27,833 nucleotides of DNA from the IMG/VR virus record IMGVR_UViG_3300027687_000057, positions 1 to 27,833 of that record; one strand, given 5' to 3'. The notes beneath the pieces are model-generated. The model was given only the letters and a program-made list of their open reading frames with translations, had not been told where the DNA came from and did no database searches. Of this stretch, positions 4,115 through 21,586 are shown piece by piece. How positions within the stretch are numbered: the first letter of the stretch is position 1; the number at the start of each line of letters is the position of its first letter. Source of the DNA: a virus. The position numbers were made by a program, and so were the translations under genes.

Positions 4115-5338
4115 ATGGAACTAGCATTAGTAAGAAGTTTAATGGATAAATCGTTTTACGATGAACATAGAGGAGCTAGGTGTCCTGATAGATTATTTAG
4201 TAAGGATACACGAAAGATAAAACAGGCTATAGATAATGCCATGAGTAGATATGAACGTACTGTAACACCTGATGAGATTGAAGCATTGTTTATGGCAAAC
4301 AATCCATCTATGACTACTGCTCAAAAGCAAGCCTATAGTTCTTTGTTTAGACAGATAAAGAATGAGAAACCATTAGGAGAAGATGTAGCACAAGAAGTTT
4401 TGTCTAAACTATTCCAACAGATTGTTGGAGAAGATATTGCTAACATAGGTTTTGATTATGTGAATGGAACACATTCAAGCTTAGAACCTATTAGAAGTAT
4501 ACTAGAATTGTACGGAGATGATTTTACACCTAACCTAAATGTGGAGTGGGATGACATGGATATAGAAACACTATTAGCTAAGAACGACCTAGAAGCACGT
4601 TGGACTTTCAATGTACCTACACTTACAAGACAAGTAGAAGGTATCAATGCAGGTCACTTAATTGAGATAGGTGCTAGACCTAATACAGGTAAGACATCTT
4701 TCCATGCAAGTATGATTGCAGGACCAAATGGTTTGGCTCATCAGGGTGCTAATTGTATTATCTTATGTAACGAAGAAGGAAGTCATAGAGTTGGTGCTAG
4801 ATACTTAACTGCATCAACAGGTATGACTATGAGAGAGATAAAAAATAATCCTACTAAGGCTCGTGACTTGTATGCACCTGTCAAAAACAATATTAAGATA
4901 AAGGATGCAACAGGTAGAGATATGTCTTGGGTTGAGAGTGTATGTAAATCTTATAAGCCTGATGTAGTTATACTAGACATGGGAGATAAGTTTGCTAGGA
5001 CAGGTGGCTTTGCTAGGACAGACGAAGCACTCAAAGCTAATGCAATTTATGCTCGTATGATTGCTAAAGAACATCAGTGTGCTATGTTTTATATGTCACA
5101 ATTATCTGCTGATGCTGAAGGTAAGGTGTTGCTTAATCAAAGTATGATGGAAGGTAGTCGTACAGGAAAAGCAGCTGAAGCTGACCTGATGATTTTAATA
5201 GCTAAGAATCCACCACGACAAGATGAGACAGAAGAAGATTTACAAAGACATTTAAATGTGGTAAAGAATAAACTTACAGGATGGCATGGTGTCGTTCATT
5301 GTAATTTAAATTATCAAATAGGAAGGTATGAAGCATGA
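4115..5338 (+). CDS. Replicative DNA helicase, DnaB/gp4B-like
   Basis: A 407-residue RecA-fold hexameric helicase expected to unwind DNA ahead of the phage polymerase. The N-terminal 150 residues are helical and may mediate primase contact. The C-terminal motor has Walker A GARPNTGKT (residues 186-194), a DnaB-type motif 1a with catalytic Glu in CNEEGS (about 218-223), Walker B DVVILDMGD (D288) and the motif 3 sensor Gln in MSQL (Q329). A basic segment NKLTGWHG near 385 may hold the arginine-finger region. AAAGGAG precedes ATG 4115. The gene overlaps the polymerase start by four bases (ATGA), which implies coupled translation. Confidence 0.92.
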   Translation: MELALVRSLMDKSFYDEHRGARCPDRLFSKDTRKIKQAIDNAMSRYERTVTPDEIEALFMANNPSMTTAQKQAYSSLFRQIKNEKPLGEDVAQEVLSKLFQQIVGEDIANIGFDYVNGTHSSLEPIRSILELYGDDFTPNLNVEWDDMDIETLLAKNDLEARWTFNVPTLTRQVEGINAGHLIEIGARPNTGKTSFHASMIAGPNGLAHQGANCIILCNEEGSHRVGARYLTASTGMTMREIKNNPTKARDLYAPVKNNIKIKDATGRDMSWVESVCKSYKPDVVILDMGDKFARTGGFARTDEALKANAIYARMIAKEHQCAMFYMSQLSADAEGKVLLNQSMMEGSRTGKAAEADLMILIAKNPPRQDETEEDLQRHLNVVKNKLTGWHGVVHCNLNYQIGRYEA

Positions 5339-7347
5339 AATTAACACTTGATGTAGAAAACACTGTTACAAATCGTAATGGTAAGATGCATCTTGACCCA
5401 TTTGAACCTACTAACAAACTCGTTATGATTGGTTGCTTAACAGATACAGGTAAAGAGTATCTATATAGAGACAACTATGATGGAGTGCAGGAGTTATTAG
5501 ATAGTGCTACTATACTGATAGGACATAATATAGTACATGATTTAATGTGGTTATGGGAATGTGGTTTTAACTATGAAGGCTCTGTATTTGATACTATGTT
5601 GGGCGAGTACATATTACAACGTGGTAACAAACAACCTTTATCTCTTGATGCTTGTGCAGAGAGATATGAATTAGAAACACAGAAACAAGATACGTTGAAA
5701 GAATACTTTAAGAAAGGTGTAGGGGTAGATGAGATACCACCTGAAGAATTGGCTAGTTACTTATCAGCAGACTTACATGCAACACAACAACTGTCTGACG
5801 TTATCTATAAAAAGTTAAACACTACTGAGTATAGTTCTTTGATGGATACAGTTATACTAACTAATAAAGTTGCTATAACGTTAGGTAAAATCTATAGAAG
5901 AGGTTTTAAGGTAGATGTATCTAAACTAGATGAGGTTAGAGTTGAGTTTGAGAAAGAGAAACAAGACATAGAAATACGTCTCAACAAACAAGTACGTAAT
6001 CTAATGGGTGACACCCCTATTAACTTAAATAGTCCTGAACAAATGTCTTGGGTTATATATAGTAAGAAACCTATAGATAAGTCTATGTGGTCAAATAACT
6101 TTACTCCTTATATGGATAACTCAGAGTATAAGGAAAAGGTAAATGAGTACTCTAACAATTTATATAAGACACAAGCTGTAAAGTGTTTTGAGTGTAGAGG
6201 AGAGGGTTATATTAGAAAGGTAAAGAAAGATGGAAACTTATACTCTAAGCCAAGTAGGTGTGTTCATTGTAATACTTCTGGCTACTTATTTAATAATACG
6301 AATACGATAGCAGGGTTAAAGTTCACTGCTCCTACTGCTAAATGGGTAAGTAATAGTGGGTTTACCACAAACAAATCCTATTTAGATATACTAAGAAATG
6401 TAGCTAAGAAAAATGATTTGACAGATGCAGTCAATTTTCTGACAGACTTACAGAGGTTGTCAGCTTTAGATACATACCTATCTTCTTTTGTAGAAGGTAT
6501 TAATACTTACGTTAAACCTGATGGTATGCTCCATGTTCGTTTACTACAACATAGAACATCTACAGGTAGGTTCAGTGGTGCTGACCCTAATATGCAGAAT
6601 ATGCCAAGAGGTGGTACGTTTCCTGTCAAGAAGGTATTCGTGTCACGTTGGGAAGGTGGCAAGATACTTGAAGCTGACTTTGCTCAGTTGGAGTTTCGTG
6701 CTGCGGCATATTTATCACAAGATAAGGTAGCAATGGATGAAGTCTCTACTGGATTTGACGTTCACTCATATACGTCTCAAGTTATTAGCGATGCAGGTCA
6801 ACCGACTTCTCGCCAAGATGCGAAAGCACACACGTTTGCACCACTCTACGGAGCAACAGGGTTTGGAAGAACCAAAGCAGAAGCTGAGTACTACGAACAC
6901 TTTACAGAAAAGTACAAAGGCATCAAAGCTTGGCACTCCAGATTGGCTAAAGAAGCTTTAGAGACAGGTATGATAACTACACCATCAGGCAGACAGTTTG
7001 TCTTCCCTGATGTAGAAAGAAAAAGAAATGGTACAGTTACTTATTTTACACAGATAAAGAATTATCCTGTGCAGTCATTTGCTACAGCAGATATAGTTCC
7101 TTTAGTACTAATGCATATAGATAAGCAACTTGACAACATACAGTCTTGTGTGGTAAATACTGTACACGACTCTATCGTAATAGACGTACACCCAAATGAA
7201 AGGGTAATGGTATTGAATATTATTCGTAATACAAATGAGACACTTATTAATTTAATTAATTTAACATTTAAAATAGACTTTAATGTGCCTTTATTATTAG
7301 AAGCGAAAATAGGAGATAACTGGCTTGACACAAAGGATGTGTCGTGA
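5335..7347 (+). CDS. polA: Family A DNA polymerase with inserted DnaJ-type zinc finger
   Basis: A 670-residue replicative polymerase with proofreading. The exonuclease domain shows motif I D6-V-E8, motif II GHNIVHD (D69) and motif III Y142-x3-D146. Polymerase motif A is D448-FAQLEFR. The O-helix is R493-QDAK497-AHT-F501-APLY505-G. Motif C is H611-D612-S613, with Ser where HDE is usual. Between the two halves lies a cysteine module, C284-x2-C287-RGEG and C309-x2-C312, matching the CxxCxGxG pattern of the DnaJ cysteine-rich domain. This insertion is known from HMO-2011-type phages. F501 aligns with E. coli Pol I Phe762. It follows the helicase with a four-base overlap. Confidence 0.95.
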   Translation: MKLTLDVENTVTNRNGKMHLDPFEPTNKLVMIGCLTDTGKEYLYRDNYDGVQELLDSATILIGHNIVHDLMWLWECGFNYEGSVFDTMLGEYILQRGNKQPLSLDACAERYELETQKQDTLKEYFKKGVGVDEIPPEELASYLSADLHATQQLSDVIYKKLNTTEYSSLMDTVILTNKVAITLGKIYRRGFKVDVSKLDEVRVEFEKEKQDIEIRLNKQVRNLMGDTPINLNSPEQMSWVIYSKKPIDKSMWSNNFTPYMDNSEYKEKVNEYSNNLYKTQAVKCFECRGEGYIRKVKKDGNLYSKPSRCVHCNTSGYLFNNTNTIAGLKFTAPTAKWVSNSGFTTNKSYLDILRNVAKKNDLTDAVNFLTDLQRLSALDTYLSSFVEGINTYVKPDGMLHVRLLQHRTSTGRFSGADPNMQNMPRGGTFPVKKVFVSRWEGGKILEADFAQLEFRAAAYLSQDKVAMDEVSTGFDVHSYTSQVISDAGQPTSRQDAKAHTFAPLYGATGFGRTKAEAEYYEHFTEKYKGIKAWHSRLAKEALETGMITTPSGRQFVFPDVERKRNGTVTYFTQIKNYPVQSFATADIVPLVLMHIDKQLDNIQSCVVNTVHDSIVIDVHPNERVMVLNIIRNTNETLINLINLTFKIDFNVPLLLEAKIGDNWLDTKDVS

Positions 7348-13498: not shown

Positions 13499-16400
13499 TT
13501 ATTGTATAGAGCCTTTTACATCTTTACCTAAAGCAAGAAATTCTTGGTCTTCTTTACCAAACATTTCTATGTAATACTCAATACCTTTTAGGTAATCTCC
13601 TGTAGTCTTGTCATGATTTTTATGTATATACAGGCTTTCACCTTCTTTATATTTGTATCTCTCCGTCACAATATCTCGTTTTTCTGCCGGAAGGGATATG
13701 AATATAGCTTTTAATTTCCTGTTTCTATCTACAGGGGTATCATTCATTAAAGGTTGTAATACCTTTACTCTAGACAATGTTCTATATTCATTTATTAAAC
13801 TTCTTAACTCATATCTTTTTAGTTTATCTGTTTCTAACTTGTTATAATCTTCACTTAATATATAGGGAAGTACATATTTATCCATACTATAACCCATCTC
13901 ACCTTTTGCTAAATTAGCGAATGGTGCATCTCCTTTTATCTTTCTTGGTGCATACTCACGATAATCAAATCTTAATCTTGCCATTTCATTTTCAACTGCT
14001 GTTCTAGTTTCTTGCTCGTTAAAACCTGTTAGCATTTTCATAAACGGATTTACATTATATAATGGTTTATTTCTTGATGGTCTATACACAGGTATATCAC
14101 CTTCTTCAGGCTCATACTTATTAGGCAATGACCTAGTGGCTTGCTTCAACATGTATTCTACCATATCTACACTAGAATTATCTTGCACAACTCTGTATGC
14201 AGGGTCTAATATAGTTCCTGCTATATCCTTTAACATACCTGCTGGAACAAGAGCAGAGTTAAAAAAGTTACCTGCAAACTTAAACATAACTTCGTCTAGT
14301 GTCATATCAGAAGGACCACCAACGTCTTTTGAATTTATAATTGAATCAACAGAACTGTCTACTATCCATAAACCTGAACCACCTTTAGCAGAGCCACCTA
14401 AGAAAGCATTTATAGCATCTCTAGGTTTACCACTAATACCAACAGCAACTTTGTCATTATCGTGTAATTGAGGTAAATCCATGCCTAAAACACTTCCTTG
14501 TTTTTTAGGACCTGTGTGCCTGTACAACCAATCAGCAATCCAAGCAGCTCCCATAAAAGGACCTAATGCTGCTTCCAAGTTATATGTAGAACCACCTATT
14601 TTAAATTCGTATGGTCCTGTATTCTCATCACCAAATTTATTACGTATTCCATAAAAAGCTGCTATAGTGGCTAAACCACTTAGTTGCTTTCCTATAGCTT
14701 CATCATCTAAGGCTAGTCTAGTACTAAAAGATTCTAGTCCAATATCAACACCACGTACACCCTTTTTACCACCTTTTTTATTTAGTATTCCACCAAAGTT
14801 TATTAGTCCTAATATAGGAGCATGTTCGTATTGAAATATGAGTTGATTAACTAAGTATCTAGGGAAGGGAACAATGGAAGAAAAAAGTATATTCTTAGAT
14901 GCACCAGAAATAAATGAATCAGCAAGTTTATTAAAACCACCTTCTTTACTAGCAAACTTACCTGTTTGATAAGAGAACTCTAATGCTTTTTCCATAGCTT
15001 CACCAATAGCTTTAGGGTCAAGCTGACTAAATTTACCTATGGTTTTACCTGCTTTTGCAGGGTCTAAATAACTATCTTCAAAAAATCCTTTTAGTCCACC
15101 CTTTATATTATTAGCATACATATATTTATCTATTTCTCTAGAAAATATAGCACGTTTAAATAAATTATCACTCATAGTATTAAGTACGTTAGCCATTCTA
15201 GCTACTTTAACAATACCACCTTCTGTACTTACTTCTTCTCCAATATCACCCATTTCTCTAAATAACATTTTGGCTGTGTCGCTGTCAGCAAATCTTTTAT
15301 CTCTAAACAATAATTCTAAAGCTTCTGTTTCCCAAGACTTTGTACCAAGCCACAAGTCCTTCATATAAGCAGACTGCCCACCTGTTCTCATTTGTGCTAA
15401 TCCTTTAGCAACAGAACGAGATGCTTCTTTAGCCATATCCCTGTTTGCTAGACCTATTAAACCTTGTCCACCAGCTTTAGTAACATTATATAAACCTGCA
15501 CCTAGATTATCTAGTGCATAGACATAATTTCTCATATATCCATTAGTTGTATTACGTGCTGTTGTAGCAGTTTGAATTGTCATAAAACCAATACGAGCTT
15601 TATTTAATGCAGGTAAACCTAACCATTGACTCATAACATTTCTTACCCTAGAGCCTACAGCTTTTTCACTTTCTTCTAAAGCTTTTTTAGCAGGGGTCAT
15701 TATATCTGAAAGGTTAATTAATTTTTGGTCAACCTCAGTTAATTCTTTTAATAATTGTTCTTTTTCTTTTTTGGCTAACTTACCTGCTTTACCTAATAAT
15801 CTACCTGCCTGACTGTACTCTTCCACAAGTAAAGAAGAAAGTTGATTCATGGATAACCCATGTTCATCTAATATTTTAAGTATACCAACATCTGTAATCT
15901 TACCATTAGTCAAACCACGTGCTAATCTAGATGTAATTCGTTCTTCTGCTAGTGCATCCTTACCCTTTTTAGTTTTTACTGTTTTTACTATAGGGTCTAC
16001 TTTTGCTAATATCTTAGATGCGGCAGAAGCAATATTGTCGTGAAACTTTTCTTCTAGTGTAGGTACAAACTTACCTGATATAAATTCTAAGTCTCCTGCC
16101 AAACCACCTTCAGGTGTCTTCATCTTCTTACCTTCAGCTATCTTTTCAGGAACAGTATCTAATAAAGACAATTTACGTTTTATCTTTTTAAAATCACCTG
16201 CTGTTTTTCTGTTTGTTTTTGTTTTAGTTGTTATGTTTTTGTGTACAGATTCAATAACTTTAGACTCTTTACCTATAGCAACCTGTCTTATCTGTTCTGC
16301 TACATTTGAGCTTAAAGTACGTTTAGTTCCAGTTATAGCACCTATAGTTCCACTACCCAATAAACTAAAGGATGTTGCCAAACCAATATTACTTAAACTA

Positions 16401-17089
16401 ACCTCATCTGTAATACCCAATTCTTTTCTAGTTCTTTCTTGTTGAGTAACCGTGTAAGCAGCAAATGTTCCATCAACTGCCATAGCACCTGTCATAGTCT
16501 TCCAACCACCTGCTTTAAAACCTTGATAAGCAGAACTAGTTTTAGCAACTAATCTTTTACCAACACCTGCTTTAGCTGTTTCTTTTGCAATATTACCTGC
16601 TGATGCCCTTAGACCTTGTTTCTTTAAACTTTCTGTAGCACCTTTTTTTAGTATCTCACGAATACCTAGCTTTATGCCTTGTTGTGCAGCCAATGCACCT
16701 GCTTTAGCAGCACCAAAAGAAAACATACCTGCATAAGTTGATGGTGCTGTAAACACACCTTCTACGTAATCACCTGCAGCTTTCCAACCTAACTCACCAT
16801 CCATAGTATCAAAAGTATTCATAAGTCTATTCATTCTAGCTTTACTTTCTTCATCAGCAGTTTGAGCATAAAATAAATCTTTAGTAGCAGTAACTTCATT
16901 TACATTTTGAACACGAAAATGCTCCATATAAGCATCATATATATCTTGTTTAGCTTGTGTTTCATTACTATAATCAAACTCGTAACCTTCTCTATCTTCT
17001 AAAAATAAAGCTGCATCCTCGATAAATGATTCATCGTTGATTAAGTTTTCTTCTTTTAAATCTTGCTGGTCTAAGTAGGTATAACTCAT
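13499..17089 (-). CDS. Large putative internal virion/DNA-ejection protein (1196 aa)
   Basis: At 1196 residues this is the largest gene of the window. It has no recognisable enzymatic motif. The N-terminus (MSYTYLDQQDLKEENLIND) is acidic. Residues about 90-250 hold Ala/Gly-rich amphipathic segments (GMFSFGAAKAGALAAQQGI, SFSLLGSGTIGAITG), followed by a Lys/Glu-rich helical region and more hydrophobic patches (GLATIAAFYGI, ALGPFMGAAWIADWLY). Size, position at the end of the virion block and helical, membrane-prone composition resemble ejected core proteins of podoviruses such as T7 gp16, but no lysozyme domain is visible. I chose ATG 17089, which overlaps the preceding stop (TAATG); a longer start at 17119 lacks support. 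Confidence 0.65.
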   Translation of the reverse strand: MSYTYLDQQDLKEENLINDESFIEDAALFLEDREGYEFDYSNETQAKQDIYDAYMEHFRVQNVNEVTATKDLFYAQTADEESKARMNRLMNTFDTMDGELGWKAAGDYVEGVFTAPSTYAGMFSFGAAKAGALAAQQGIKLGIREILKKGATESLKKQGLRASAGNIAKETAKAGVGKRLVAKTSSAYQGFKAGGWKTMTGAMAVDGTFAAYTVTQQERTRKELGITDEVSLSNIGLATSFSLLGSGTIGAITGTKRTLSSNVAEQIRQVAIGKESKVIESVHKNITTKTKTNRKTAGDFKKIKRKLSLLDTVPEKIAEGKKMKTPEGGLAGDLEFISGKFVPTLEEKFHDNIASAASKILAKVDPIVKTVKTKKGKDALAEERITSRLARGLTNGKITDVGILKILDEHGLSMNQLSSLLVEEYSQAGRLLGKAGKLAKKEKEQLLKELTEVDQKLINLSDIMTPAKKALEESEKAVGSRVRNVMSQWLGLPALNKARIGFMTIQTATTARNTTNGYMRNYVYALDNLGAGLYNVTKAGGQGLIGLANRDMAKEASRSVAKGLAQMRTGGQSAYMKDLWLGTKSWETEALELLFRDKRFADSDTAKMLFREMGDIGEEVSTEGGIVKVARMANVLNTMSDNLFKRAIFSREIDKYMYANNIKGGLKGFFEDSYLDPAKAGKTIGKFSQLDPKAIGEAMEKALEFSYQTGKFASKEGGFNKLADSFISGASKNILFSSIVPFPRYLVNQLIFQYEHAPILGLINFGGILNKKGGKKGVRGVDIGLESFSTRLALDDEAIGKQLSGLATIAAFYGIRNKFGDENTGPYEFKIGGSTYNLEAALGPFMGAAWIADWLYRHTGPKKQGSVLGMDLPQLHDNDKVAVGISGKPRDAINAFLGGSAKGGSGLWIVDSSVDSIINSKDVGGPSDMTLDEVMFKFAGNFFNSALVPAGMLKDIAGTILDPAYRVVQDNSSVDMVEYMLKQATRSLPNKYEPEEGDIPVYRPSRNKPLYNVNPFMKMLTGFNEQETRTAVENEMARLRFDYREYAPRKIKGDAPFANLAKGEMGYSMDKYVLPYILSEDYNKLETDKLKRYELRSLINEYRTLSRVKVLQPLMNDTPVDRNRKLKAIFISLPAEKRDIVTERYKYKEGESLYIHKNHDKTTGDYLKGIEYYIEMFGKEDQEFLALGKDVKGSIQ

Positions 17090-18564
17090 TAAATAATACT
17101 TCCATATGTAGACAACCAATCTTTGCCAGTATTCTGCTTAAATTGATTTTTTCTATCTTGTTCTGTTACTACATTTTCTTGTGTAAAATATTTCTTCCAC
17201 ATTCTAGCACTAGTGCCTGTAGGTTTATTGGCAAATGTAGTCTTTAATACATTTAAATCCATTTTTACAGTACCTAAAGGGGTAAGTGTATTTGGTGTAC
17301 TTTGCTTAAAGACTTTATTATTAGTAAGACCTGAATTTGTTGCAGAATTATTTAACTCAGCCATATCAAACTCTATTTTTCCTGTTGCAACTATATAGGG
17401 GTTGCCATTGTTTTTATCTTCGTAATCTCTTGTAGCAATCATTTCTTTTGATACTCTCATAACATCAATACCATTTCTTGCTGCCAACTCTATCATAGTA
17501 TTTGGTTCTATAGGTTTGTCAAAGAAAGTATCTGATATTTCAGAAAATTCATTAGCTAATGTAGCTGGTATAAAACCTCTAGCTGTTTGTTGATTTTCAC
17601 CTCTACCATTAACGCTTTTTGCCCACATCACTGTATCTTTAAATTTAGTACTAAAGTCACTAGCTATACCTGCATTAACAGCTTTTTTATTAACACTATT
17701 CCAAGAACCATCATATTCTAATCTACCACCAATATTTGCATAGGAACTAAGCATAGATTCATACGAGCCTTTTGTTGATTTTTGTTGAGCTACGGTTAAT
17801 TGTTTATCGCCAATATTGGATATAAGACTTGCTAATCTTTTTTGTTCTGTTATCAAAGCTTCAGGTGCTTCGTCACCTAATTGGTCTGTTCTACCTCTAA
17901 TTAATTTTAAATCTGCAGCATAGCTTTGCCCTAATTGCAAATCAAATTTATCCACATTAATATCAGAAGCCGCTGATAACTCCCCAAAGTCAGGTTTTAA
18001 ATTTGATGCACCTGCTAGTGCTCTATCTGCTTTTATTCTGTTAGAAACATACTTTGCTACATTGTCTTCTCCTCTAGCAAATATATTAAGTATACCCATA
18101 CCAGTACCTTTTAAAGCATCATCATCTAAACTGTCATCTCCAATATTCATAGGTATCGTTATTAAATTAGCTAATTGCTTAGATGAAGGTATTTTATATC
18201 CATCAACAGTTTCTCCTAAAGGCATATAAGTATCACCTGCAACTAAACCGTTGCTATTTAATCTTTTGACAATAGAAGGAACTAAAGCTTTAGCACCTGT
18301 CCAACTTTCTTTATTAATCAAAGAATGTAAAACTTCCATACCTCTAGTTCCACCATTTACATTTAATTGATTAGCTAAAAATTTAATTTCTTCTTCATTT
18401 CCTCTAAAATCTTCATCAAATCTACCACGTTCATTTATTTCTCTATTTATCTTTTTTTCAGATAATCTGCTTACCCTACCATCTAAATCATTCATAGCAT
18501 CATTAACACCCTTAGTAGTAGACTTTGCTAAACCCTCTAATAAACCCATGCCAAAACTTCTCAT
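17089..18564 (-). CDS. Putative internal virion protein (491 aa)
   Basis: A 491-residue protein with no family I recognise. The N-terminus is an amphipathic helix (MRSFGMGLLEGLAKSTTKGV) followed by a charged helical stretch (DGRVSRLSEKKINREINERG). The rest is mixed helical with many Asn, Gly and Thr. AGGAG lies before its ATG at 18564, directly after the preceding stop. It is translationally coupled to the 1196-residue gene through a TAATG overlap. Two adjacent large proteins at the end of the virion operon suggest core or ejection components, as T7 gp15 and gp16 are adjacent; this is positional inference. Confidence 0.55.
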   Translation of the reverse strand: MRSFGMGLLEGLAKSTTKGVNDAMNDLDGRVSRLSEKKINREINERGRFDEDFRGNEEEIKFLANQLNVNGGTRGMEVLHSLINKESWTGAKALVPSIVKRLNSNGLVAGDTYMPLGETVDGYKIPSSKQLANLITIPMNIGDDSLDDDALKGTGMGILNIFARGEDNVAKYVSNRIKADRALAGASNLKPDFGELSAASDINVDKFDLQLGQSYAADLKLIRGRTDQLGDEAPEALITEQKRLASLISNIGDKQLTVAQQKSTKGSYESMLSSYANIGGRLEYDGSWNSVNKKAVNAGIASDFSTKFKDTVMWAKSVNGRGENQQTARGFIPATLANEFSEISDTFFDKPIEPNTMIELAARNGIDVMRVSKEMIATRDYEDKNNGNPYIVATGKIEFDMAELNNSATNSGLTNNKVFKQSTPNTLTPLGTVKMDLNVLKTTFANKPTGTSARMWKKYFTQENVVTEQDRKNQFKQNTGKDWLSTYGSII

Positions 18565-19101
18565 TTAATTTCTCCTCGCCATTAAACCTGAAGGCTGTTC
18601 TTCTTCCATTATAATTTCTTCAGGCATTTCTGCTTCTGTTTTCATTATATCTTCAGGTAACTCTCCTTCTACTTCGTCACCCTTTTTGTTTTTTATCTCA
18701 GCTTTTAATTTCTCAACAGTTCTTTTGGCTAAACTATCTCTATCACTACGAGGTGCATCATCTAAACCTGTCTTGTATTTAATACCTGCTGAATCTCCTA
18801 TCAACATCATTGTCTCTATTAACACAGGTAATAACAACAAACCTACATCTACAGTATGTTTACCTTCCATAACCCCTGCTAACTGTATTGTATTAGCAAT
18901 AGTCGTTAAAGGTATGCCCATATCCATAATATCTACAAGTTGGTCAGAGAACTCATCACTCATCATTCTTGATGTGTAATGTTCTACAGCATCCTCTACA
19001 GTTGGAAACTGTGCAGGTTGTTGCCAAGGTCTAGCACCAAGTTCATGTGTTAAAGACATCCCCGGAATCGGAGCATCTAGTCTAGGCTGTTTCGCTTCCA
19101 T
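18565..19101 (-). CDS. Virion-block protein with hydrophobic helix and acidic tail (178 aa)
   Basis: A 178-residue protein. Residues 1-30 are Pro-rich, followed by a helical region (VEDAVEHYTSRMMSDEFSDQL). A hydrophobic segment VDVGLLLLPVLIETMMLIG (about 85-103) may be a membrane-interacting or buried helix. Then comes a charged linker and a strongly acidic C-terminus (ELPEDIMKTEAEMPEEIIMEEE) ending in a basic cap. I recall similar unnamed proteins in marine podovirus and myovirus virion clusters, but no family name. Its first 20 bases overlap the end of the upstream 75-residue gene. Confidence 0.55.
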   Translation of the reverse strand: MEAKQPRLDAPIPGMSLTHELGARPWQQPAQFPTVEDAVEHYTSRMMSDEFSDQLVDIMDMGIPLTTIANTIQLAGVMEGKHTVDVGLLLLPVLIETMMLIGDSAGIKYKTGLDDAPRSDRDSLAKRTVEKLKAEIKNKKGDEVEGELPEDIMKTEAEMPEEIIMEEEQPSGLMARRN

Positions 19102-19309
19102 TGTTTTTCATTTCCATTCTTTTGTTTCTTATGGTATTGGTATATCTAGCTATTCTATAAGATGGTTGTACGTCATTCTCATTACGATTGTTTTTCATAA
19201 AGTTTTTTACAGGAGCTAGTAACCCACTACCCTTTTTTTTAGTTTCAGTAGGTTGCATCTTTATCTGTTGAATCATTTTATACATATTCTTTGCGTGATT
19301 AGTTACCAT
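19082..19309 (-). CDS. Small basic hypothetical protein (75 aa)
   Basis: A 75-residue, Lys/Asn-rich protein (MVTNHAKNMYKMIQQIKMQP at the start), with a Gly-Leu-Leu patch after KKKGS and a basic C-terminal half. ATG 19309 lies one base after the stop of the 689-residue gene; a TTG further upstream at 19321 would lie inside that gene. The binding site is weak, so translation probably depends on coupling. No family is recognised. Confidence 0.55.
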   Translation of the reverse strand: MVTNHAKNMYKMIQQIKMQPTETKKKGSGLLAPVKNFMKNNRNENDVQPSYRIARYTNTIRNKRMEMKNNGSETA

Positions 19310-19310
19310 G

Positions 19311-21380
19311 TTACATTCCAAACCTTAAATAAGCAGTACCTAGTGTACCAATTAAACTTCCAATAGCACTACCTGCACTAGATGAGCTTTGTTCAGCAGC
19401 TACTTCTTTTCTAGTTCCTGCATCTATTTGTGCTTCAGCTAGAGTAGTTACTCTGTCAAGTTCATTCTCTGCTGATGTCCATGCCCATTCCATGCTATCA
19501 GCATAGTACTGCCATAGATTGTCGTAAGAGTTCTTAGATATATCAAGTAATGCATTAGCATTTAATTCATTAGAACGATTGATAGAAGCAGTATCTGCTG
19601 TAGCAATCTGCCTTCTCCACGTAGCATTACTCTGTGATATAACCATTTGATTCTGTGCATTAAATTGGTCACGTTGATTATTTAACTCTGCGTTAAATCT
19701 TTCTACAGTATTAGCTTGACCTGCATTAAACTGCCCTTGAGCATTAGCTTGAGTAGCATTAAACTGTGCTGTCTGTGTAGATAAGTTAGCAAAAAATTGG
19801 TCTACTTGATTTTGACTAGATGCATTAAATTGTTTAGCAGCATTTGTAGCAGCTTGGTCTGTAAACAAACTTTGTGTTCTTTGCTGTGCCTTAAATAAAT
19901 CAGTCTGTTGTTGATTTGATAAATTAGCCATATCTAACTGCATAAAGTTCTGTGCATTTTGTACAGCAGACTGTTGTCTATTGTTTAAGTTAGACATATC
20001 TAAATTAGCTAATGCTGATGCTTCAGTCATAGTCAAAGCTTGTCTATTTGATAAGTTATTTAAATTCATAGTGTTAGCAGCTCTACTGTTTTCCAAAGCA
20101 ATAGATTGTTCAGCAGTAAAGTTTTGATTAGCTATATCAGCAATCCTAGCAGAGTTTTGTACTCTTGATTGAAATGCTTGGTCAAACTCCTGCCCTATAA
20201 ATGTTGCACGTTGTTGTGCCGCAAGCATAGCACGTTGTTGTCTGTTAGATAAATTTTGTGCTTCAAATGATGCTACCGTTTTAGCATCTGCTTGAGCAAT
20301 AGGAAGTGCTGATTCCAATGCACCTTGTATCATAGCTTGTCCTGCCATTGAAGATGCACCTAAACCTCTAGCAGCCATCTGTGCTTGTACAGCACGTAAT
20401 GTTCCTGCTGCCCATGCAGGTGGATTACTTGCATCAAAGTTAGCAGTAAGTGTCGCAAGCTGTCCTTGAACAGTAGCTTGATTTGTTGGGGTAGCTGTGG
20501 CGGCTTGTATTTGTTCAGCATAAGTAGAAGCAGTCTCTGCATTAGCTACACCTGATATTAGTTCACCTGTTTGTACTTGTCTTTGTACAGGATTCTCTAA
20601 AAGAATAGCATTACCTTGAGCAGAAGTTAAACTACCTACGCTTGATGCAGTTTGTTGTGCTGCAAGTATCTGAGAACGAGGGTCTGTTTCATTTGTTTGA
20701 GCTGCTTGTAATGTGTCTAAAGAAGTGTTTACTTGCTCTGCAACACCTTGAGCATCTACAATATTTGCTGTAGTAGCAGTAGGCTGTTCAGCCATAGTAG
20801 TCTGAGCCATAGCTGTTGGTACAGAAACAGTTCCTGATAATTGACCACTTGTAGGTGCAAGCATTTGTTCTTGAGTTAATTGAGTTCCTACAGGAACAGT
20901 TGTTCCACCTGTAGGTAGTGCAGGAGTAATAGCTTGTTGTGAGGATACTTGCCCTATTGTAGAATCTGTTGGCACACTTAACTGTGGAATATTTTGTTGT
21001 GGTAATGCACGTGGGTCAGGTTGAGGTGCAGGTTGTGTTTGTATAGGTGCAGGTTGAGGTGCTACAGGCATATTTTGTCCTGTGTAAGCTACAAGAGCCG
21101 ATGGGTCAGGAGCTGCTTCTCTATTTAAGTATTGTTGTCCTGTAGTAGGATTAATAAAATTAGGTATAACAGCAGCCCCGGGAACACCACCCACTGCCAT
21201 CTTCTTAACCATACCACCTCTAGCCATCTCTTGTGCCCTACCTTGATACACAATCATCTCTCGTTGCTTATCAGGGTTCTGTTGTAGGTACTGGTCAAAC
21301 TCTTCCATCCTACCTGCATAGCCCATCTTAGAAGCTATCTTCTGTAATCCCTGTGGCTTAAAGCCTGTAAACATTGCCAT
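19311..21380 (-). CDS. Repeat-rich virion protein with a 20-unit hendecad coiled coil (689 aa)
   Basis: A 689-residue structural-type protein in three parts. Residues 1-90 are a mixed domain starting MAMFTGFKPQGLQKIASKMG. Residues 100-340 are a low-complexity Gln/Pro/Ala/Thr region (PAPIQTQPAPQPDP). Residues 376-595 form exactly twenty 11-residue units, for example NATQANAQGQF, NAGQANTVERF and NAELNNQRDQF. The last part ends with a Ser/Gly-rich hydrophobic tail (SSSSAGSAIGSLIGTLGTAY). Hendecad repeats form straight or right-handed coiled coils, suited to a long stalk, tail needle or core tube. AGGAA lies before the ATG. Function is inference; no named family. Confidence 0.65.
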   Translation of the reverse strand: MAMFTGFKPQGLQKIASKMGYAGRMEEFDQYLQQNPDKQREMIVYQGRAQEMARGGMVKKMAVGGVPGAAVIPNFINPTTGQQYLNREAAPDPSALVAYTGQNMPVAPQPAPIQTQPAPQPDPRALPQQNIPQLSVPTDSTIGQVSSQQAITPALPTGGTTVPVGTQLTQEQMLAPTSGQLSGTVSVPTAMAQTTMAEQPTATTANIVDAQGVAEQVNTSLDTLQAAQTNETDPRSQILAAQQTASSVGSLTSAQGNAILLENPVQRQVQTGELISGVANAETASTYAEQIQAATATPTNQATVQGQLATLTANFDASNPPAWAAGTLRAVQAQMAARGLGASSMAGQAMIQGALESALPIAQADAKTVASFEAQNLSNRQQRAMLAAQQRATFIGQEFDQAFQSRVQNSARIADIANQNFTAEQSIALENSRAANTMNLNNLSNRQALTMTEASALANLDMSNLNNRQQSAVQNAQNFMQLDMANLSNQQQTDLFKAQQRTQSLFTDQAATNAAKQFNASSQNQVDQFFANLSTQTAQFNATQANAQGQFNAGQANTVERFNAELNNQRDQFNAQNQMVISQSNATWRRQIATADTASINRSNELNANALLDISKNSYDNLWQYYADSMEWAWTSAENELDRVTTLAEAQIDAGTRKEVAAEQSSSSAGSAIGSLIGTLGTAYLRFGM
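19596..20255 (-). repeat. Region encoding twenty 11-residue (33-base) repeats
   Basis: This part of the 689-residue gene encodes residues 376-595. Every eleventh residue falls in the same register across 20 units with no phase break. A 22-residue pair repeat is visible at residues 442, 464 and 486 (NLSNRQ, NLNNRQ and NLSNQQ), and NLSNRQ also starts the array at 376. The last seven units share QF/RF followed by NA. The repeat is seen at protein level; the bases have diverged. Confidence 0.8.
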
Positions 21381-21391
21381 ATATTATATTC

Positions 21392-21586
21392 CTATTTCAA
21401 TACTATTGCGACAATCAAAGCTACTACACCTAATGTACCTGCCATAGACATAGCTTCTAATCGCCACATTCTTTTGTCTAAAGTGCATAGCTTATCATCT
21501 ACTGCTTGATAACGTATGGCACATTCTTTCTCGTGAGCATCTAACTCTAGTTGTACCTTGAGTTCAGGTCGCAAATCCATCTTCAT
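21392..21586 (-). CDS. Small coiled-coil membrane protein, holin-like candidate (64 aa)
   Basis: A 64-residue protein. A charged helical N-terminal part (LELDAHEKECAIRYQAVDDKLCTLDKRMWRLE) is followed by a single C-terminal membrane span (AGTLGVVALIVAIVLK). This order, coiled coil then tail anchor, resembles XhlA-type haemolysin/holin helpers and small phage lysis proteins. No endolysin gene is near it within the window, so the lysis role is only a suggestion. It lies between a fibre gene and the repeat-rich gene, with gaps of 3 and 11 bases. Confidence 0.5.
   Translation of the reverse strand: MKMDLRPELKVQLELDAHEKECAIRYQAVDDKLCTLDKRMWRLEAMSMAGTLGVVALIVAIVLK

Follow-up and report, generated by a model that had tools for sequence, protein, structure and literature searches.

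The DNA analysed here (hereafter, the window) is a 27.8 kb virus record and represents a fragment of an HMO-2011-type marine podophage. Phages of this type are among the most abundant marine viruses (PMC9038755). The window is laid out as in Puniceispirillum phage HMO-2011, with replication genes on the plus strand and structural genes on the minus strand. One of the minus-strand genes encodes a 689-aa protein carrying a hendecad repeat, and its homologue in HMO-2011, phage1322_25 ('hypothetical protein'), is 66% identical to it over the matched part. No family match was obtained for the 689-aa protein in Pfam, PHROGs, or NCBIfam, and a profile search against solved structures returned no homologue. 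The repeat gene, the parts of its product, and the genes downstream are as follows.

19311..21380 (-): gene for the hendecad-repeat protein, 689 aa, homologue of HMO-2011 phage1322_25
21183..21380 (-): residues 1-66, small conserved helical N-terminal domain with a GG-rich motif at its end, defined by conservation and predicted helices
20691..21182 (-): residues 67-230, variable Pro/Gln-rich linker with 22 Pro
20346..20690 (-): residues 231-345, conserved pre-array region, in which the N-anchor begins
19860..20255 (-): residues 376-507, proximal hendecad sub-array, 12 units arranged as six 22-mers (NLSN.QQ.AL.NAQ...)
19662..19859 (-): residues 508-573, distal hendecad sub-array, six 'FNA' units, F being at position 11 of the unit
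19431..19661 (-): residues 574-650, C-anchor, register of 11 unchanged, with conserved WRR, WQYYAD, and WAWTSAEN
19314..19430 (-): residues 651-689, Ser/Gly/Ala-rich C-terminal tail
19082..19321 (-): short ORF, at most 79 aa, that lies between the repeat gene and the 178-aa gene
18565..19101 (-): 178-aa gene whose product has a single strongly hydrophobic segment, putative gp14-like ejection protein by size and position
17089..18564 (-): fast-evolving 491-aa gene, putative gp15-like ejection protein by size and position only
13499..17089 (-): last gene, about 1196 aa (ORF of 1206 aa from an upstream TTG), whose product has fold matches to annotated internal virion proteins

The N-anchor covers residues 301-368 (PAWAAG..RGLGASS..ESALPIAQ). 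The helices of the N-terminal domain were predicted with a pLDDT of about 80, and in some relatives (e.g. CRP-1) this domain is replaced or preceded by other domains. In the long homologues (L083, which is CRP-1, L051, L079, and others), the N-terminal part has been exchanged or lengthened by several hundred residues, to as much as 1670 aa for the whole protein, and the C-terminal half is constant despite these changes. The upstream neighbours of the repeat gene are tail-fibre-like genes; directly upstream lies a 64-aa ORF (21392-21586, minus strand) with one C-terminal hydrophobic segment and a holin-like look. Elsewhere in the window, residues 279-320 of the family A DNA polymerase (5335-7347, plus strand) weakly match the CXXCXGXG zinc region of DnaJ, and this region is likewise present in the annotation of the HMO-2011 DNA polymerase.

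Periodicity and predicted structure of the array

The initial annotation had placed the array at residues 376-595 of the minus-strand ORF, i.e. window positions 19596-20255, and these coordinates are correct. Within these residues, the identity at lags of 11, 22, and 33 was 0.23-0.24 as against ca. 0.11 in shuffled sequences (z about 6, range 5.7-6.4; 0 of 2000 shuffles reached it), and the same test gave no heptad signal at lag 7. The 11-residue repeat is therefore real. The 22-residue pairs reported at residues 442, 464, and 486 were found as N-L-x-N pairs, with a further one from residue 376. The F-N-A motif, which had been ascribed to all of the last seven units, is exact at five of the seven junctions (518, 540, 551, 562, and 573), the others being F-F-A (529) and S-N-A (584). 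The repeat does occupy the twenty units into which the array had been divided, but there is no natural boundary at twenty since the register of 11 runs on past residue 595 (596, 607, 618, 629, and 640), and the sequence is conserved and predicted to be helical to about residue 650 and beyond. Similarly, the Pro/Gln linker said to precede the array exists, but the conserved region of residues 231-345 intervenes between the two.

The hydrophobic periodicity of 210 relatives had a median of 98.0 degrees per residue in both sub-arrays, and this value was compared with 98.2 degrees for an 11/3 hendecad, 102.9 degrees for a heptad, and 100 degrees per residue. Together with an all-helical prediction, this agrees with the hendecad helix proposed in the initial annotation; a lack of signal at an 11-residue period, which would have spoken against it, was not borne out, the signal being present at the 11/3 periodicity. 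A periodogram of the window's array peaked at 3.68 residues. Since the hydrophobic-moment scan of the window's proximal part alone peaked at 81.5 degrees, the 98.0-degree result is a family-level one, and it is firm at that level.

The hydrophobic stripes of the proximal and distal parts face opposite sides of the helix. A 'two-seam, barrel-type' helical wheel of the proximal part was considered; it was not significant (permutation p 0.37) and is not claimed. In the distal part, there is a strong single F stripe, and such a stripe combined with an 11-residue periodicity would also suit an amphipathic membrane-binding helix of the alpha-synuclein or perilipin kind acting on the host envelope. 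However, the proximal part is amide-rich and lacks a single hydrophobic face, nor is the protein basic. We therefore regard a membrane-binding helix as very unlikely.

AlphaFold2 (single chain, 50 sequences) predicted one nearly continuous helix at residues 346-685 with low to moderate confidence (mean pLDDT 59; 80-88 around residues 550-620). A fold search of this model in the PDB gave no match, as is expected of a lone helix; matches to one long helix carry no meaning. A straight helix of residues 346-650 would measure about 46 nm, so the predicted helix is longer than the unique 33 nm rod of the initial annotation. The arithmetic itself is also unsafe, since the longest relative would form a straight rod of about 128 nm, too long for the capsid of a 50-60 kb genome. 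Either the helices fold back or bundle, or the length serves something else.

Array length among the relatives

Relatives were gathered from IMG/VR and annotated phages (212 distinct), profiles were built for the two conserved flanks (residues 301-368 and 574-647), and the separation between them was measured. The anchor separation took 15 values from 128 to 755 aa, all of which fell in one class modulo 11, and the array from anchor to anchor thus comprises 11-68 units across the family. This range contradicts the 'fixed length' of the initial annotation. On the other hand, its suggestion that repeat number be compared across relatives bore out the repeat itself: every relative found has it in register, and none lacks it. 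Only close relatives share the same number of units.

A held-out set consisted of relatives that were found later, in bacterial genome bins, and that played no part in profile building. All 13 rows (about 10 distinct) obeyed the modulo-11 rule and added three new lengths. The odds of 18 distinct lengths falling in one class by chance are near 2e-18, a figure that takes the lengths as independent and, because whole-unit duplications give the rule automatically, gauges the exactness of the rule rather than the selection underlying it. The linker from the N-terminal domain to the first anchor, which served as a control, showed 92 lengths among 125 sequences with an even spread modulo 11. The array is an in-register helical hendecad that is not of fixed length. 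Two rhizobial relatives appeared to be 2 residues off register when a loose text pattern was used; a different Trp had been matched, and the profile anchors placed both in register. The genome-bin loci L271-L274 are the same phage contigs binned under both Flavobacteriales and Neomarinimicrobiota, indicating that the bins are unreliable on host.

Most of the copy-number variation between relatives lies in the proximal sub-array. The distal units number six in 169 and eight in 37 of the 212 relatives. The number of proximal units is even in all 212, and not even in 2 of the about 10 later relatives; evenness is thus a tendency only, as is the +10-unit (110 aa) ladder on which many lengths lie. 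The longest arrays, with 56-68 units between anchors, are those of L159, L173, L176, L209, L211, L241, and L251, and a clear 110-residue super-repeat was observed in the longest.

These 110-residue duplications might suggest that the periodicity is a recent product of DNA slippage without structural meaning. However, no tandem repeat was detectable in the DNA of the window's repeat gene, where identity at a lag of 66 bases was only 0.41; in the long arrays measured, it was at most 0.62 at a lag of 330 bases. Moreover, the register persists at 25-30% protein identity. Slippage is already contradicted by these observations and is hardly credible as an explanation. The register of the protein outlives the similarity of the DNA, which points to a structural constraint and to a periodicity that is probably maintained rather than recent.

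On a tree of the flanks, which is based on few columns and has many unresolved forks, 26 changes in unit number are required. Short to very long arrays occur on near-complete contigs of roughly 50-68 kb, so array length does not track genome size. The array may be an ejected tape-measure-like rod or tube in short-tailed phages, tuned in length by 11, mostly 22, and often 110 residues, although we consider this specific proposal unlikely. If it is true, the dimensions of the conduit or core would evolve in steps of whole structural quanta and independently of genome size.

The downstream cassette and the exchanged C-terminal modules

A homologue of the 178-aa gene was located downstream of the repeat gene in every relative with enough flank, none being without it, and in 13 of the 14 genome-bin loci. 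No PHROGs or NCBIfam match, and no convincing Pfam match, was obtained for the repeat protein or for any of its three downstream neighbours. In podophages, gp14-, gp15-, and gp16-like ejection proteins are clustered in this order, with sizes of 181-240, 431-982, and 609-1337 aa (PMC8954989), and the order and sizes of the window's genes (178, 491, and 1206 aa) match them. The 1206-aa ORF (13499-17119, minus strand) begins with TTG; the ATG ten codons in (17089), at the stop of the preceding gene, is the likelier start. When the model of the 1206-aa product was compared with a viral predicted-structure library, it matched the internal virion proteins of Pelagibacter phage EXVC018P (E 9e-8) and Synechococcus phages S-CBP2 (2e-7) and S-RIP1 (7e-5); the fold search of the same model against the PDB yielded only unrelated transporters and the like, with E above 0.4. 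The last cassette gene of Pelagibacter phage HTVC103P has a lysozyme domain at its end (PF00959; phrog_2083 'internal virion lysozyme motif'). Enzymes that cut peptidoglycan (lysozyme, M15 peptidase, cell wall hydrolase) are annotated beside the repeat gene in five relatives, RHph_N3_19, CRP-3, CRP-738, ctYwJ313, and CRP-603 (L091-L095).

The repeat gene sits in a gp14/15/16-type cassette, in which the 178- and 491-aa genes are assigned by size, position, and one hydrophobic segment. Of the roles offered in the initial annotation, part of an ejection channel fits this gene context (the linkage to the 178-aa gene, the lysozyme domain, and the fold match of the last product).

The linkage to putative core proteins is also consistent with a scaffold or organiser in the head, whose long helices would guide assembly of the ejection core or contact the packaged DNA, forming no channel. 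The N/Q/A-rich helix, the net charge of about -14, and the variation of array length at contigs of about 50-68 kb, which implies that the length is not set by envelope or genome size, are likewise in line with this role. Since it leaves unexplained why whole hendecads are better conserved than total length, we think a head scaffold quite improbable.

Other modules are swapped in at the position of the C-terminal tail in relatives. A CWVAREVYG module of ca. 75 aa is appended past the Gly-rich tail in many of them (L004, L024, L046, L054, L056, L068, and L082) and is absent in the window. A Peptidase_S74 domain, absent from the window protein in the domain search, forms the C-terminus of the CRP-3 and CRP-738 relatives. 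Since Peptidase_S74 is a trimeric endosialidase-type chaperone, C-terminal modules are exchanged among relatives, and tail-fibre-like genes lie just upstream, the protein might instead be an external trimeric rod, either a tail needle or a fibre stalk, with the array as a three-stranded coiled coil and the C-terminal modules as tips or folding chaperones. However, 'DNA injection/ejection' proteins of phage 7-11 and its kin also contain S74 or S74-like domains, the match in 7-11 being 20.5 bits, just under the Pfam cut-off. In addition, most of the family lacks a tip domain, the gene goes with the cassette and not with the fibre genes, and the longest arrays would give rods of the 128 nm calculated above. 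For the needle envisaged in the initial annotation, the only positive evidence is the S74 domain found fused to the protein in two relatives, and an external rod appears doubtful.

A possible role in DNA delivery

Helices with 11-residue units are found in two kinds of phage protein. The DNA tube of phiX174 H is a Q-rich helical coiled coil of three hendecads followed by eleven heptads, and N, Q, and R account for 18 of its 23 lumen-facing residues (PMC7354561). The window protein likewise has N/Q/A-rich hendecad helices; unlike H, its family has 11-68 units and zero heptad signal. Siphophage tail tape measure proteins contain a variable count of an 11-aa F/W unit, in which a marker F occupies a fixed position (Belcaid 2011, PMC3271669). 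The family shares with them the variable number of 11-aa units and the F at a fixed unit position, but the described phages with the repeat gene are short-tailed and offer no long tail for the array to measure. Indeed, no long-tail context (major tail protein, assembly chaperones) was found around the gene, its neighbours being fibre-like genes and the cassette. These two cases show that 11-residue helices can serve DNA delivery, and they are analogies only.

In kuravirus SU10, gp20-24 are in the virion and missing from the genome-release intermediate (PMC9509320). As in SU10 and 7-11, the repeat gene lies near the end of the structural operon and is followed by a mid-sized gene and then a larger one, and the 'DNA ejection protein' gp020 of 7-11 has a C-terminal S74-like domain as the CRP-3 and CRP-738 relatives do. 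No hendecad periodicity was detected in SU10 gp21 and gp22 or in 7-11 gp020, and hhalign revealed no homology to phiX174 H, SU10 gp22, or 7-11 gp020 (probability below 3%, with reversed-sequence controls as high). The three downstream genes resemble the T7 and P22 cassettes (gp14/15/16 and gp7/20/16, respectively) in order and size classes, and the largest product does so also in its fold match to annotated internal virion proteins. Neither T7 nor P22 is known to encode an equivalent of the long hendecad protein immediately upstream of the cassette. The profile and fold searches gave no sequence or fold similarity of the repeat protein to a known ejection protein.

On balance, we favour, by a cautious judgement, the view that the repeat protein is an internal virion protein (an ejection or 'pilot' protein) and that its hendecad helices associate as a bundle or a tube, which helps build a DNA conduit. 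The protein's mode of action is best read as like that of phiX174 H or tail tape measures, with no demonstrated homology to either. From the gene context and the predicted helix, we infer the following course. The repeat protein, encoded first in the ejection-protein cassette, would be carried in the head. Its C-terminal half, one long helical hendecad array, would self-associate laterally to give a thin bundle or tube. The protein would leave the head with or ahead of the DNA and, with the gp14/15/16-like partners, may form or scaffold a conduit for DNA across the envelope. No virion proteomics of any relative was found in the literature. Several points count against the ejection reading: the searches above linked the repeat protein to no known ejection protein, neither its model nor that of the 1206-aa product had a structural hit in the PDB, the 491-aa gene is placed by size and position only, the fold match of the large neighbour proves nothing about the repeat protein's own role, the roughly sixfold variation in array length is hard to reconcile with a conduit of set length, and the S74 domains of the CRP-3 and CRP-738 relatives are typical of trimeric fibres.

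Although HMO-2011-type phages are abundant, the annotation of their genome-delivery proteins does not go beyond 'hypothetical'. The family provides a natural series in which arrays range from 11 to 68 units while genome size stays roughly constant, and with it one may ask what an ejection-associated helical rod measures and whether amide-rich hendecad helices have been arrived at repeatedly as a means of moving DNA.
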